A stretch of 64,000 nucleotides of DNA, taken from NCBI RefSeq assembly GCF_000233955.1, contig NZ_JH376642.1, forward strand, positions 124,001 through 188,000, given 5' to 3'. Positions 327 to 31,738 of this stretch are shown here, in pieces; position 1 is the stretch's first letter, and each line of letters begins with the position of its first letter. The position numbers and the translations under genes were made by a program. Below the pieces are notes generated by a model. The model worked only from the letters and a program-made list of their open reading frames with translations, was not told the origin of the DNA and did no database searches. The DNA is from Paraprevotella clara YIT 11840. Its GTDB lineage: Bacteria > Bacteroidota > Bacteroidia > Bacteroidales > Bacteroidaceae.

Positions 327-1481
327 ATGTACAAACCGACATATAAGAAAAGAACCGCACGCATGATTTCATGGGTATGCGGTTCTCTTTTCACCTTGTT
401 CTCCCTGCTTTACCTGTTTGTGATGCAGGCTGATTTATTGGCTACCGCACAACATTTGTTGTCGAAAGGGCAGACCGTCTATTCTCCGCTGTGGGGAACG
501 GTCATCATTACCTTTCTGCTACTGTTATTGCAGGGAGTTTTTCGGCGGATAATGGTATATCCGTTGCGTTTCCATGCACTCTATTATTTCCCGTCGTGCG
601 TCGTGTTGGGATTGCTTACGTCCATTGTTCCTCAAACAGGGTGGAATGTACAATTGTCTACCAATTGGATATGGCTCACGGTCTGTATTTTTTTGTATAT
701 CCTTGTGACATGGATGGCTCTGCATTTCCCGGACCGTAAAAACGGAAAACAGAATGCTTTTTCCTTCCTATGGGTGAATTTCCTATGGCTTGCGTTGCAG
801 TTCTGCATGGTAAACAGCATAGCCAATACGAAAGATGTATACCACTACCGGCTCAAAGCCGAGAGATACCTCGTCGAAGGGCAGGACTCGTTGGCGTTGC
901 AAGTAGGAGCCCAATCATTGCAGACAGACCGGAGCCTGACTGCCATGAGAGTGTTTGCACTAAGCCGTGAGAATCTTTTAGGCGAGAAGCTTTTCGATTT
1001 TCCTCAATATAACGGTAGCCAAGACCTGTTGCCCAGTTTGTCTGATACAACCTACGCTCATGATTGGACGAAGGCCTTATACAAACATTTAGGGGGAAAG
1101 CCGGGGAAAAATATGAAAGACAACACCCGGTTTCTCGAACTTCTGTCCCAACGGCCTTCGGCCACTGCTGCTGCAAAAGATTACTTGCTTTGCGCCTATC
1201 TGTTGGATAAGAACCTTGATGCTTTTGTCACCGTACTGCCACGTTGCCATGAAGTGAACGACAACCTCCCGTTACATTACAAAGAGGCTCTCATTCTATA
1301 TAACCGTTTGCATACCACTCCGGCCATTACGTACAAAAACAGCGTAATAGAAACAAACTTGAACGACTTCCTCCACTACGGTATGCAATATACTCATGCG
1401 ACGGAACGCTCGAACCAATGCCGACGCATGTACGGAAATACGTATTGGTGGTATTATTACTATCAAAAACCTTCTGAATAA
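327..1481 (+). CDS. DUF6057-like multipass membrane protein
   Basis: A 384-residue protein with an N-terminal membrane part and a soluble C-terminal half. Hydrophobic segments lie at about residues 14-34, 58-73, 88-105, 114-133 and 145-163. From about residue 170 it becomes a helical, repeat-like domain (KAERYLVEGQDSLALQVG and similar stretches) that looks TPR-like. It resembles the Bacteroidetes family DUF6057, whose function is unknown to me. It starts 34 bases after the branching-enzyme gene on the same strand, so the two may be co-transcribed. It ends 8 bases before the convergent NO_stim-like gene. No catalytic motif is visible. Confidence 0.7.
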   Translation: MYKPTYKKRTARMISWVCGSLFTLFSLLYLFVMQADLLATAQHLLSKGQTVYSPLWGTVIITFLLLLLQGVFRRIMVYPLRFHALYYFPSCVVLGLLTSIVPQTGWNVQLSTNWIWLTVCIFLYILVTWMALHFPDRKNGKQNAFSFLWVNFLWLALQFCMVNSIANTKDVYHYRLKAERYLVEGQDSLALQVGAQSLQTDRSLTAMRVFALSRENLLGEKLFDFPQYNGSQDLLPSLSDTTYAHDWTKALYKHLGGKPGKNMKDNTRFLELLSQRPSATAAAKDYLLCAYLLDKNLDAFVTVLPRCHEVNDNLPLHYKEALILYNRLHTTPAITYKNSVIETNLNDFLHYGMQYTHATERSNQCRRMYGNTYWWYYYYQKPSE

Positions 1482-3160: not shown

Positions 3161-3225
3161 TGGTTTCTTCTTGTGTACGTTTGATTGGTATGTAGAAAAA
3201 CACCCTACCTTAATAATTTGGGCGC

Positions 3226-3233
3226 AAAGGTAC
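3226..3233 (-). promoter_or_regulatory. Bacteroidetes -7 box for the purine permease
   Basis: Reading on the minus strand gives TACCTTTG, a perfect TAnnTTTG. It lies about 66 bases upstream of the chosen start codon at 3160. Confidence 0.6.
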
Positions 3234-3377
3234 GAAAAAAACAGTAAAGGAAGCAGGTATGTTTCGCTTTCTCCTGACAATTAAAGAGGCATTTCGAGCC
3301 AAATGTTAAAAATCGAGGGCAAATTAGGTATTTTCGCTCCGTCGTTCGTCCTATATATAAAACGTGATTGGAATCGG

Positions 3378-28695: not shown

Positions 28696-28701
28696 ACACA
28701 G

Positions 28702-28744
28702 AAAATGCCGGAAAGGTTTCAAGTTCCAACCTTTCCGGCATTTT
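28702..28744 (+). terminator. Terminator after rlmD
   Basis: A 17-bp perfect stem (28702-28718 with 28728-28744) whose right arm runs into a T stretch. It starts 6 bases after the rlmD stop and also lies downstream of the convergent acyltransferase gene. Confidence 0.85.
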
Positions 28745-28774
28745 TTCATTATGCTGACGAAAACCGGAACAGCG

Positions 28775-29890
28775 TCATCGCCCTCCCGTCAACACTGCGC
28801 AAATCCGGGGTGTATATCGCCGAAGCAACTCGTAGAGTCCGAATGAGACGGCAGTAGTCAAGCAGGGCACGACGAAATAAAGTGCAACCGTATAAAAAAG
28901 ACTGTCCACGAAAAATACTTTTGTGATACACCTTGCTAAGACGAGCATGAGCAAAGCGTGTAGGGCATACAGGAAGAAACTGCCATCCGACAAGAACTTG
29001 TTCACCCGGATGACACCGCGTTCCAACAAGTATGCCGTCAGCACGACCGCTGAGAATATGCCGAAAATGATGCCGATATTGTGGATATAAATACCGTATA
29101 TACCCTCCACCTTTAGCATATCAGCCACCGCCCAAAGGGGATACAGCAGGGCTATCCACGTGCGGTGGCGCATCGAGGCCACCAAGTCCATACCTTTCAG
29201 ACCGTAGCAGGCTCCCCACGAGAAGAAGAAAGCCGCTGTGAAGAACTGTCCCCAGTAGGTTATATTGCAAATGGAATGCAAGGCAAGCCAAACCATACCC
29301 AAAACCACAACTGCCAACCATCCAACCTTTTTGAGCATCCAATAGAATACAGGAGCCAATACGACCACGAGCATAAGGTCGCGAACATACCACAAGGGAA
29401 AATCCTGCGGATAAATGTATGACGATGCAGGTACAGGGAACACACCGCGACTTTTGTCCCAGAAACACGCCAACACCGCAGACAACGACCAGTTGGCTTG
29501 CGCTGTGTCGTGGCTTAAGCCAGAGAATGCGGGAATGTCCCGAAAAGCAGTTCTGATCAAGTAGAGCAGGTTCCATAGGATATATGGGACGAGGAGCGTG
29601 CGTACCCTTCTGCGTAACTTGTCTGTGTAAGTCCGTATCATGAAACCCGAACGGAAAAACAGGTAACCCGAGATAATGAAGAACAACGGTACGGCAATGC
29701 GCGGCAGGACTTCGCTAAACAAGTTGAACATACATACGAGCCACGTGGGGAAGTGTTCGGCGTTTCCGGTGCCACGCACGGCCAAATTATCGGAAAGAAC
29801 GTTGAAATGGATGAATACGACACCTACCGTCAACGGAAACCGGAGCGCACTGATAGTGCTCGATGTTAGACTACTGATTTTTTCTTTCAT
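28775..29890 (-). CDS. Membrane acyltransferase, acyltransferase-3 family
   Basis: A 371-residue integral membrane protein with about ten hydrophobic helices. The family hallmark is the N-terminal ISALRFPLTVGVVFIHFNV, where the His in the first helix is the usual catalytic residue. A second conserved part is FFIISGYLFF around residue 80. Such enzymes O-acetylate or otherwise acylate sugars of exopolysaccharide, LPS or peptidoglycan. No sugar-polymer genes are adjacent, so the acceptor is unknown. The start codon lies only two bases after an 11-pair hairpin, and upstream is a strongly folded leader (see 29893-30141), which suggests RNA-level control of this gene. Confidence 0.85.
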   Translation of the reverse strand: MKEKISSLTSSTISALRFPLTVGVVFIHFNVLSDNLAVRGTGNAEHFPTWLVCMFNLFSEVLPRIAVPLFFIISGYLFFRSGFMIRTYTDKLRRRVRTLLVPYILWNLLYLIRTAFRDIPAFSGLSHDTAQANWSLSAVLACFWDKSRGVFPVPASSYIYPQDFPLWYVRDLMLVVVLAPVFYWMLKKVGWLAVVVLGMVWLALHSICNITYWGQFFTAAFFFSWGACYGLKGMDLVASMRHRTWIALLYPLWAVADMLKVEGIYGIYIHNIGIIFGIFSAVVLTAYLLERGVIRVNKFLSDGSFFLYALHALLMLVLARCITKVFFVDSLFYTVALYFVVPCLTTAVSFGLYELLRRYTPRICAVLTGGR

Positions 29891-29892
29891 AA

Positions 29893-30141
29893 CAGATGAT
29901 AGCTTTTACGCATCTGCTATCATCCGCATGGACACACAAAGAAGGCGTGAACCTTATCTGTGCGTCCACCGAGGCAGTGTAGGAAAAGGAAGCCTCCCAA
30001 GAAAACAAGACAAGTCCACGCCCTGACGGCGCAAACATTAGTCCTATCTTTCTTGGTAAGCTTCAACCTCCCACGGCAAGCTTGTCTATTATTTGCATGT
30101 TCTATTTCCTAATGAGCTTCCTACACTTTTCGGTGAACGCA
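29893..30141 (-). promoter_or_regulatory. Structured leader RNA (riboswitch-like) upstream of the acyltransferase
   Basis: On the minus strand, 30130-30141 pairs with 29961-29972 (12 pairs, one T-G wobble) and 30119-30127 pairs with 29976-29984 (9 pairs), closing a domain of about 180 bases. Inside it, CCAAGAAA and TTTCTTGG form a distal stem (30048-30055 with 29998-30005), and AAGCTT at both ends makes a small hairpin (30059-30082). The 3' strand of the closing stem can instead pair as GGACGCACA (29967-29959) with TGTGTGTCC (29938-29930), so the two are mutually exclusive. A third hairpin (29926-29916 with 29903-29893) ends two bases before the acyltransferase ATG. The wobbles favour minus-strand transcription. 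It could be a riboswitch-like leader or a 6S-like RNA. I recognise no named class. Confidence 0.5.
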
Positions 30142-30925
30142 ATAATAGCTAATGCTTTGTTAATATTTAAATATGTCGTTTATTTTTATTTCATTCCTGA
30201 TATGCTTTTTTAAAGTTCCACATGGATGGTCCGGATTCCCGCCCGACCTTGCCGGCCTGCCTTAACGGACACAAAGGGAATCCGCACAAACTGAGAACAA
30301 AATTACATAAAAAATGCGAGACCACGTGCAATGGGATGCCTTTTTCTCACCATCCATTCATTTTGGACAAATGGCAGGGAAATAAGGGTTTCGTATGCAA
30401 AAAGAAAGTTTCAAGCGTTTCTTCGGATAGGACGTGAGCCGCTGAAAAAACGGAAAAACAAGATTTCTGTTTGAGTTTAGATACGTTTCTTCACAATTTG
30501 GCCTCGTTTTTTATACGATTAAACGTTTTTTAAGTTCAAACGAGGCCGAACTTTTTTTCGTTTGGCGCAGAAAACATTTTTTATCTCCTCAAGTCGTAGT
30601 GAGGTCATCCGCATTCCGACACTTAAAACAGTTGAAAACGGCAAACGAAACAGCGCAAAACGCCTCGTTTTTTTCTATTTGGTCGGTACCTGATACTGTG
30701 GAAAGGGCGGCATGATGAAAGCTTAAACACGATTTTTGCTATCATGAACCCCGACAGGAAAGGCATAGGACAGCAGTTCTTCTTGCAGGATACAAGGAAA
30801 AGAACTGAGGAGTTGTCTTTTTGTTTCCGCCAGACCGCACGAGAATCGCTTGTTTTCGTCTTCATCTGCCTTGCCCCCGAAATATCACAATCCTACATGG
30901 GGGAAAATGGCATTTTGCCAAAATG
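30142..30925. other. Gene-free AT-rich interval
   Basis: About 780 bases with no gene I can support. A weak -7-like box on the minus strand (TATTATTG, 30140-30147) could start the structured leader. At 30500-30509 and 30538-30547 there is a 10-bp inverted repeat (GGCCTCGTTT/AAACGAGGCC), and the word CCTCGTTTTTT occurs again near 30663. The part nearest the HAD gene holds a small TGGCA/TGCCA hairpin that may end that operon's transcript. Short open frames here have no family resemblance. Confidence 0.4.
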
Positions 30926-31738
30926 TCAAACACAAAGCAGGAATTTCTCCACCACTGCAGCCACACCGTCCTCCTCATTCGAGAGAGTAACATAGTCGGC
31001 GGCTTCTTTTACGACATCCTGCGCATTGGCCATGGCTACTCCCAAACCTGCAAACTGAATCATGGACAAGTCGTTGAATCCGTCACCCACAGCCACCATC
31101 TCTTCCGGCTTCATGCCCAACTCGTCCAATAGGACGGCAAGACTCCGCGCCTTGTCGATACCATTGGGCACCAATTCCAGGAAAAACGGTTCGGAACGGA
31201 ATACATTCATCCGCCCTTCCAAATCTTGCTTCATCTTTTGCTCCAGCACGGACAACGGTTCCGGGTCGCCCACAATCAGGCACTTCGGAACAGGGAAATC
31301 GAACACCTCCAGGAAATTCGGTACGATAATGCTGGGCATCCTGTTCAGAAAAGCCTCATGCTGCACGTACGGATTCCCCGCGTCTTCCGATACGATGTAT
31401 TCGTCCTTGTAGCTCAATATTACGAAACCGTTCTTTTTCGCGCATTCATATAAATAAGGATATACTTTCGGGTCGAGTTCATTCTCATACATCATCTTCT
31501 TGGTCTTCCAATCAATGATTTGCCCTCCGTTGTAGGACAGGATATAACCCTCGAAGTCCCCGAGGCGCAGTTCTTCGGCCAACGGGACGATGCCGTAGGT
31601 GGGCCTTCCGGAAGCCAGCACGATCTTCACGCCCGCTTCCTGTGCCCGGATGAGGGTTTCCCTCGTATGCGCCGTGATTTCTTTTTTCTTATTCGTCAAA
31701 GTCCCGTCCAAATCCAGGACCAAAATCTTGTATTTCAT
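30926..31738 (-). CDS. Cof-type HAD-IIB phosphatase
   Basis: A 270-residue haloacid-dehalogenase-fold hydrolase. Motif I is DLDGTL with D9 and D11, motif II ASGRP, and the C-terminal motifs are the conserved Lys region (GIDKARSLAVLL) and VAVGDGFNDLSMI, with the IIB cap between. Members dephosphorylate sugar phosphates, flavin or other small phosphates; the substrate cannot be predicted here. It is the last of four closely spaced minus-strand genes, 7 bases after tex. Confidence 0.92.
   Translation of the reverse strand: MKYKILVLDLDGTLTNKKKEITAHTRETLIRAQEAGVKIVLASGRPTYGIVPLAEELRLGDFEGYILSYNGGQIIDWKTKKMMYENELDPKVYPYLYECAKKNGFVILSYKDEYIVSEDAGNPYVQHEAFLNRMPSIIVPNFLEVFDFPVPKCLIVGDPEPLSVLEQKMKQDLEGRMNVFRSEPFFLELVPNGIDKARSLAVLLDELGMKPEEMVAVGDGFNDLSMIQFAGLGVAMANAQDVVKEAADYVTLSNEEDGVAAVVEKFLLCV

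Follow-up and report, generated by a model that had tools for sequence, protein, structure and literature searches.

The window analysed here is a stretch of 64,000 nucleotides of Paraprevotella clara YIT 11840 DNA, in which a gene for a membrane protein lies on the minus strand behind a long, structured and conserved RNA domain (Table 1). The original prediction had placed a membrane acyltransferase downstream of a riboswitch-like leader, and this gene assignment held (Acyl_transf_3, PF01757); the protein had no PADLOC match. The gene, the RNA and the DNA upstream of it form an accessory block, as genome G014 lacks 28745-30940 and has flanks that are 95-97% identical. The approximately 0.8 kb lying 5′ of the leader within this block (30160-30940) carries no obvious gene. 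Within the genus, the neighbouring HAD protein was matched in 18 of 18 genomes (only 47-48% identity in G007 and G013), the acyltransferase had matches of 26-38% identity, and a search of 17 relatives found no leader DNA. No direct DNA homology to 28700-30950 was detected in plasmids and phages (distant mode), and a protein scan of genome contigs with the acyltransferase gave 38 pattern matches, none of which was confirmed.

Table 1. Features of the leader RNA and its gene in the window.
Feature	Position	Strand	Basis
Accessory block of about 2.2 kb (leader, upstream intergenic DNA and gene)	28745..30940	-	Absent from G014
Acyltransferase-3 family membrane protein, 371 aa	28775..29890	-	Acyl_transf_3 (PF01757), E 4.7e-23
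Entire conserved leader RNA, from the 5′ motif up to the base preceding the ATG	29891..30155	-	Family homology, R1 and R2 matches, z -7.03; transcription start unknown
Conserved 5′ motif GCATTAGCTATTATT, 5′ strand of P0	30141..30155	-	Motif also in order-mates; pairing retained in variants
P1 5′ strand	30130..30141	-	12/12 pairs with 29961-29972
P1 3′ strand, shared with P4	29961..29972	-	12/12 pairs with 30130-30141
P2 5′ strand	30119..30127	-	9/9 pairs with 29976-29984; covariation
P2 3′ strand, within the P6 loop (H-type pseudoknot)	29976..29984	-	9/9 pairs with 30119-30127
P6 5′ strand, GAGGC	29992..29996	-	Pairs with GCCTC 29971-29975
P6 3′ strand, GCCTC	29971..29975	-	Pairs with GAGGC 29992-29996
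P3a hairpin (30028-30036 with 30014-30022)	30014..30036	-	9/9 pairs, three of them G-U
P4 hairpin, reuses the P1 3′ strand; loop 29944-29952 complementary to the P3a 3′ strand	29930..29967	-	P7 pairing
P5 start-codon hairpin, 11 pairs, two bases before the ATG at 29890	29893..29926	-	Fold; family position relative to start codons

The predicted minimum free energy of 29893-30141 was far below that of dinucleotide shuffles (z -6.61, 0 of 200), as was that of 29860-30160 (z -7.03, 0 of 100). The original prediction had described a closing stem of 12+9 pairs, a hairpin sharing a strand with it and an 11-pair hairpin ending two bases before the ATG, and all three held; on the minus strand, the 21-pair closing stem consists of P1 (12/12 pairs) and P2 (9/9). 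Its coordinates held only in part: the 5′ end was missed, and the conserved motif at 30141-30155 belongs to the RNA. Two further pairings, the P6 pseudoknot and P7, were absent from it. The sequences flanking the P2 3′ strand pair together to form P6, which turns P2 into an H-type pseudoknot. In the window RNA the 5′ motif pairs with 29916-29923 (8/8) and 29910-29913 (4/4), a pairing designated P0, and both of these partners also lie in the left arm and loop of P5. In P7, 30014-30022 pairs 9/9 with 29944-29952.

Relatives were found in the same order. When 393 genomes of the order were searched at the DNA level, 19 had a match, the window's own included; many of the other matching genomes have AAAGCATTAGCTATTATT and the start of P1 in common, and the flanks of the DNA matches proved to be whole homologous RNAs. 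A pattern scan of a contig collection (the motif, 197-227 bases, then TGATAG) returned at least 120 stretches, and the first 80 loci were analysed while a further 40 were held out for the start-codon test. The titles of the 80 loci give Bacteroidia or Bacteroidales taxa except for L289 (Mucilaginibacter) and L293 ("Alphaproteobacteria"); taxa whose titles do not name Bacteroidia are ones which we take to be Bacteroidales. L289 and L284 were chance matches and not members of the family. L289 and L211 were removed before grouping together with near-duplicates of ≥93%, and L284 and L279 were removed before the alignments A1 (47 sequences, group B plus the window RNA) and A2 (33 sequences, group A plus the window RNA). 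The 15-mer motif alone was nonspecific: it occurred in 10 of 198 genomes versus 4 of 198 for its reversed control, it matched unrelated DNA in L215-L218, and a scan of viral sequences with it returned at least 120 stretches.

A covariance model, R1, was built from 47 sequences, the window's own among them, and matched the window at 29960-30142 with 74 bits. At E ≤0.001, R1 matched 24 of the 393 order genomes including the own genome; in 18 of these the match reached ≥50 bits, and a single genome carried as many as five copies. Several of the weaker matches were group C RNAs, which are described below. Among 247 phylum-wide genomes it matched the own genome and gave one weak match, and weak matches may be lost at this scale. 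That sole non-own match (G649, 33.6 bits) did not resemble the family on reading.

The original prediction had proposed a covariance search in which compensatory change in the 12+9-pair stem would speak for a leader, and when this check was run, strong compensatory change was found there, which favours a leader. In A1, 95.9% of the cells of P1, P2, P3 and P3a were paired, compared with 82.6% in shuffled alignments and 34-42% when the helices were slid; 230 cells were double-changed against 76.5 in shuffles, and the covariation score was 0.453 against 0.218 (0 of 500 shuffles). Support from further pair types was weaker, as 42 of 500 shuffles did as well. P1 was 100% paired in the 47 sequences, with double changes in 5 of 9 pairs, P6 was 96.5% paired in the same 47, and P3a was 97.4% paired in the family. 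In A2, P1 and P2 were 96.9% paired with a score of 0.553 versus 0.170, and further pair types were not above shuffles (256 of 500). A P6 helix of at least four pairs was present in 47/47 sequences of A1 and 33/33 of A2, a few group A rows having a different helix. These shuffle controls leave relatedness in. An alternative pairing of TTCACGG with the P1 3′ strand (P1alt) was 95.1% paired in group B and clear in that group only; it was not established for the window RNA, and hence no claim is made for it there.

The position of the RNA relative to coding sequences was examined by taking the longest downstream open run as the gene frame and choosing the P5 hairpin blind to ATG. Within -6 to +8 nt of the 3′ arm of P5, an in-frame ATG open to the gene was present at 90 of 97 loci (L249 excluded), and the other two frames gave 5/97 and 1/97. 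The held-out loci, 33 after removal of 7 near-duplicates from the 40, gave 33/33, with one each in the other frames. Among the seven misses (L213, L243, L258, L268, L284, L379 and L391), L284 is a non-member, L268 is cut before P5, and L243 and L258 are at contig or locus ends; L379 and L391 are the misses left without such a cause. At L213:3131 the methyltransferase frame seems to begin at ATA where relatives have ATG. In L268 (4471-4750) the copy ends before P5 and is followed by TACCTTTG, which resembles another promoter. P5 was abnormal or missing in L268 and in L255/L209, and L382 was without the 5′ motif. The conserved spacing between P5 and the in-frame ATG (90/97 and 33/33) indicates a cis leader. 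The comparisons of sequence thus show the helices, their conservation and covariation, and the placement of P5 at start codons; the family has a conserved structured domain in the 5′ leader position, and its transcription as a leader is inferred.

The sequence could also be envisaged as a DNA element, such as a mobile repeat in dispersed copies or a site of recombination, with inverted repeats that merely mimic an RNA structure. The accessory nature of the block and the occurrence of the family in many genomic contexts are in favour of such a DNA element. Against it stand the G-U pairs, the double changes that differ by helix, the spacing tied to in-frame start codons, and the variation of the arm sequences between copies, and we consider it very unlikely.

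P0 joins the 5′ motif, GCA(U)..GCUAUUA, to its complement UGAUAGY..UGC in the P5 left arm and loop, and since it thus uses one arm of P5, P0 and P5 are mutually exclusive. In 18 loci, the total energy of each motif with its own partner was -183.5 kcal/mol, compared with a permuted mean of -157.6 (sd 7.8; 0 of 2000 permutations). This set comprised 13 clear motif variants and included the window RNA, L382, which has no motif, and L379/L381, whose segments were truncated by a wrong start; L249, L258, L268, L279, L284, L289, L385 and L386 were left out before the test. By eye, GCAAC and AGCUAUUAC in L374 pair with GUGGUGGCU-GUUGC, AGCAAUAUU pairs with AAUGUUGUU in L379 and L381, ACUAUUA pairs with UGAUAGU in L387, and GC-UUACUAUUA pairs with UGAUAGUAAGC in L388. 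Since variants of the motif still pair with the P5 left arm, the reading of the motif as a promoter only was rejected. P5 itself also showed compensatory change, with GCAAUGUUG:CAACAUUGC in L379 and GAAGUGGUU:AACCACUUUC in L375, and the AUG still adjoined it.

A second choice lies in the core. The P3a 3′ strand (GGYGUGRGC) pairs 9/9 with the P4 loop in 47/47 sequences of A1, the window's included, and in L255 this P7 pairing was retained although P3a was down to 4/9. All 423 of 423 P7 pairs were observed, compared with 410 of 423 for permuted partners, and therefore part of the support for P7 is plain conservation; the informative part is the excess of Watson-Crick pairs (342 versus 315, 0/500). 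Two mutually exclusive choices tied to an expression platform, P0 versus P5 and P3a versus P7, are shown in this way, the argument resting on sequence alone.

The P0/P5 choice was also examined by folding 17 chosen loci. Transcripts without the P5 right arm folded with P0 in 17/17, involving 10-14 of the 15 motif bases, and when the P5 right strand was blocked, P0 formed in 15/17 (not in L221 and L206). Full-length folds preferred P5 by about 2-16 kcal/mol, with a P0 pairing probability of ≤0.03 in 14/17 loci; for the window RNA, the full-length fold was -113.9 kcal/mol versus -106.2 kcal/mol with the P5 right strand blocked. These energies ignore the pseudoknot. Because the full-length folds disfavour P0, the start would be closed in the absence of a signal or of kinetic effects.

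A third set of relatives, group C (L427-L446), consists of multi-copy RNAs that covary, are about 165 nt long and carry a U-run at the 3′ end. The model R2 was built from seven group C RNAs, with groups A and B absent, and its sole match in the 64-kb window up to E 1 was at 29938-30157 (38.5 bits, E 1.6e-5, full length), so the window RNA is a member of the group C/R2 superfamily. R2 matched 76 of 198 order genomes and 16 of 18 genus genomes, and nine copies besides the window's were found in the own genome, the weakest at E 7e-4; own-genome group C copies lie at G000:C39:86902-87069 and in C7, C41, C84, C29, C21 and C4. In a fitted alignment of 48 R2 matches, 93.2% of cells were paired and the score was 0.680 versus 0.234; this alignment leans towards the model and includes the seven model sequences, and one of the 48 matches is antisense to another. 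A P7 partner forming a helix of at least five pairs preceded the terminal U-run in 44 of 48 (permutation 0/500), the window's row being misaligned in this test. The window RNA and group C have the same helix order, namely 5′ hairpin, P1, P2, P3, P3a and a 3′ segment complementary to P3a. Group C differs in that P5 was not seen, the RNA ends in a U-run, and in the 20 copies inspected it stands mostly before secreted or LRR-like proteins and small regulators. An open frame began 4-105 nt downstream in 16 of 20 inspected copies, and the downstream products judged by eye were mostly secreted or LRR-like proteins, HTH proteins and a DHFR-like protein. Similar small HTH proteins were seen downstream of both RNA groups (L374, L376, L433, L442 and L446). 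In L211, a group C RNA (3168-3330) lies just 5′ of a DUF805 RNA (RF03081, 3457-3522), and in L007 a group C RNA (1150-1318, minus strand, 70.5 bits) lies near a Bacteroidales-1 RNA (1501-1675) on the opposite strand.

Two rival explanations may be considered here. The first is that the RNA is an independent transcript, a small RNA of 6S type or another kind, which terminates in the U-rich sequence following P4 and is merely located upstream of the gene. It draws support from the short AAAGG..CCUUU hairpin followed by U-rich sequence in group B, from the U-run end and missing P5 of group C, and from the L268 RNA that is cut before P5. Against it, P5 and its spacing to start codons are conserved (90/97, 33/33), P0 joins the 5′ end to P5, and there was no 6S match in 29700-30450 and none to RF00013 in 25 relatives, so we judge it unlikely. 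The second is a transcription attenuator, in which P3a would act as antiterminator and P7 with U-rich sequence as terminator, giving read-through or a stop before the gene. The P7 partner preceding the U-run in group C (44/48), which would be the same core with another platform, and the U-rich sequence after P4 in group B are points for it. In the window, however, what follows the P4 loop strand is CUUUGUGUGUCC and not a U run, P7 crosses P1-P3, and P5 and P0 would be superfluous; this explanation also appears improbable.

The genes that follow the start-codon form were classified from 95 first downstream proteins (L249 and L258 excluded): 77 were of restriction-modification type, 10 envelope-modifying and 2 HTH proteins, and 6 were unassigned. 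The original prediction had tied the RNA to acyltransferase genes, and this failed as a specificity, because 64 of the 95 resemble EcoRI-type adenine methyltransferases (PF13651 by Pfam for L221, the remainder by BLASTP to two of them). In 51 of the 59 cases with enough DNA, the methyltransferase was followed by a motif of the GmrSD_N/HNH protein that Pfam identified in L200, and the methyltransferase motif was found in 24 of 33 held-out frames. Thirteen further DNA methyltransferases or restriction enzymes were assigned by Pfam and PADLOC, L270 by clustering with L222; they are HsdM, MmeI-type IIG, Tsp45I, D12, N6_N4, C5, Eco57I-type, ResIII-HNH and one IIG. The ten envelope enzymes, assigned by family name, are Acyl_transf_3 in the window and L257, sulfatase/EptA-like proteins in L206, L387 and L388, glycosyltransferase 2 in L237, L265 and L297, GDSL in L390 and DUF2334 in L227. 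DNA modification and surface modification are therefore the inferred common theme, a theme that rests on family names. No reverse transcriptase was recognized by Pfam among the five window proteins or 30 first downstream proteins scanned, and a retron ncRNA reading was dropped on this ground.

Considering all the above results, we propose that the leader of the acyltransferase mRNA is likely a cis-acting two-state control of translation, in which the states, their ON/OFF sense, their coupling and the expression are inferred. The rod-like core (P1, P2 with the P6 pseudoknot, P3 and P3a) would keep the two ends of the RNA close together. In the first state, the 5′ motif would pair with the P5 left arm and loop (P0), leaving the stretch before the AUG single-stranded so that translation could start. 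Bacteroidetes initiate at unstructured, A-rich start regions without Shine-Dalgarno pairing. In the second state, the P5 hairpin would close against the AUG and block initiation. P0 is proposed to form first, as transcription reaches its partner ahead of the P5 right arm, and refolding to P5 would then shut the gene unless the core is held; the choice in the core between the P3a hairpin and P7, formed by the P3a 3′ strand and the P4 loop, may couple a signal to P0/P5. The same leader stands before unrelated genes. The riboswitch-like leader of the original prediction is thus supported by covariation, by position at start codons and by exclusive pairings able to open and close the start; its "aptamer" remains an inference, as do transcription, ligand and switching.

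It is also possible, though we consider it rather unlikely, that the leader is bound by a host protein or a trans RNA, as in translational silencing, without any small-molecule aptamer. The 5′ motif, which is strictly conserved, might serve as a binding site, and as the RNA is common to many genes and genomes, a common host factor is plausible. Against this reading, the downstream cargo is unrelated, so that the shared regulator cannot be a protein encoded downstream, and there is no candidate protein. Two-state control by the leader, our preferred explanation, leaves the sensor open and overlaps this reading, and consequently the likelihoods assigned to the explanations do not add up to one.

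If two-state control by the leader is correct, many Bacteroidales would control restriction-modification modules and single-gene surface modifications by the same RNA, which suggests timing of newly acquired and potentially toxic restriction genes and would provide one signal shared by defence and surface change. That the relatives are multi-copy points to a larger RNA class. A bolder reading, which we regard as more likely to fail than to hold, is a new Bacteroidales riboswitch superfamily with one pseudoknotted aptamer core, one common signal and two outputs. Within it, the start-codon form (P0/P5) would control restriction-modification systems and envelope-modifying enzymes, and the U-run form (group C) would govern small regulators and secreted surface proteins; a single RNA-sensed signal would then link surface remodelling with DNA restriction, each of which is a plausible defence against phage. 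Because its covariation is strong, the two-state model is explicit and the mutants to make are clear, the leader family lends itself to immediate testing.

Searches against Rfam 15 gave no match above the gathering cut-off on the window RNA, and none on the RNA in sets of 12, 18 (including the non-members L284 and L289) and 10 loci (seven of group C); in L211 the DUF805 RNA lies beside the RNA and not on it, and one group C copy had below-cut-off matches only. In the open-access literature searched, no title named this leader RNA, and it was not described in the bearing passages of PMC2864571 and PMC7366714; because supplementary files were not covered, unnamed predictions of the same RNA are possible. 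The family looks like an undescribed RNA switch and might represent a new riboswitch class, with ligand, switching and expression all inferred. Strict membership among riboswitches would require a ligand; we class it as a riboswitch-type translational leader.

The main alternative named in the original prediction, a 6S-like RNA, received no support: 6S RNA was not matched up to E 10 in 29700-30450, and RF00013 matched in 0 of 25 relatives with control genomes positive. In the RF01685 search of 25 genomes the control matched nowhere. The window RNA resembles 6S RNA (RF00013, RF01685) as a long rod with a terminal closing stem, of about 180-200 nt up to P4, and is unlike it in having no Rfam match, a position in cis at start codons, a pseudoknot, P5 and, in some genomes, several copies. 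Bacteroidales-1 RNA (RF01693) is of similar length and from the same order, and it is a separate RNA, as R1 and R2 miss the RF01693 stretches of ten genus loci. Identity with it was rejected, since RF01693 did not match the window RNA and the genome has its own copy elsewhere; that copy lies at G000:C2:37633-37810 (RF01693, 160 bits). With translational riboswitches the family shares a structured 5′ leader, exclusive helices, a hairpin closing the start codon and one core before many genes; it differs in that no ligand is known, there is no Rfam match, and the cargo of restriction-modification and envelope genes is not one pathway. JUMPstart and EAR are operon-leader antitermination elements that act on elongation. 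Like them, the window family includes an RNA element before surface-polysaccharide genes; unlike them, its RNA ends at the start codon, often before modules of one or two genes.
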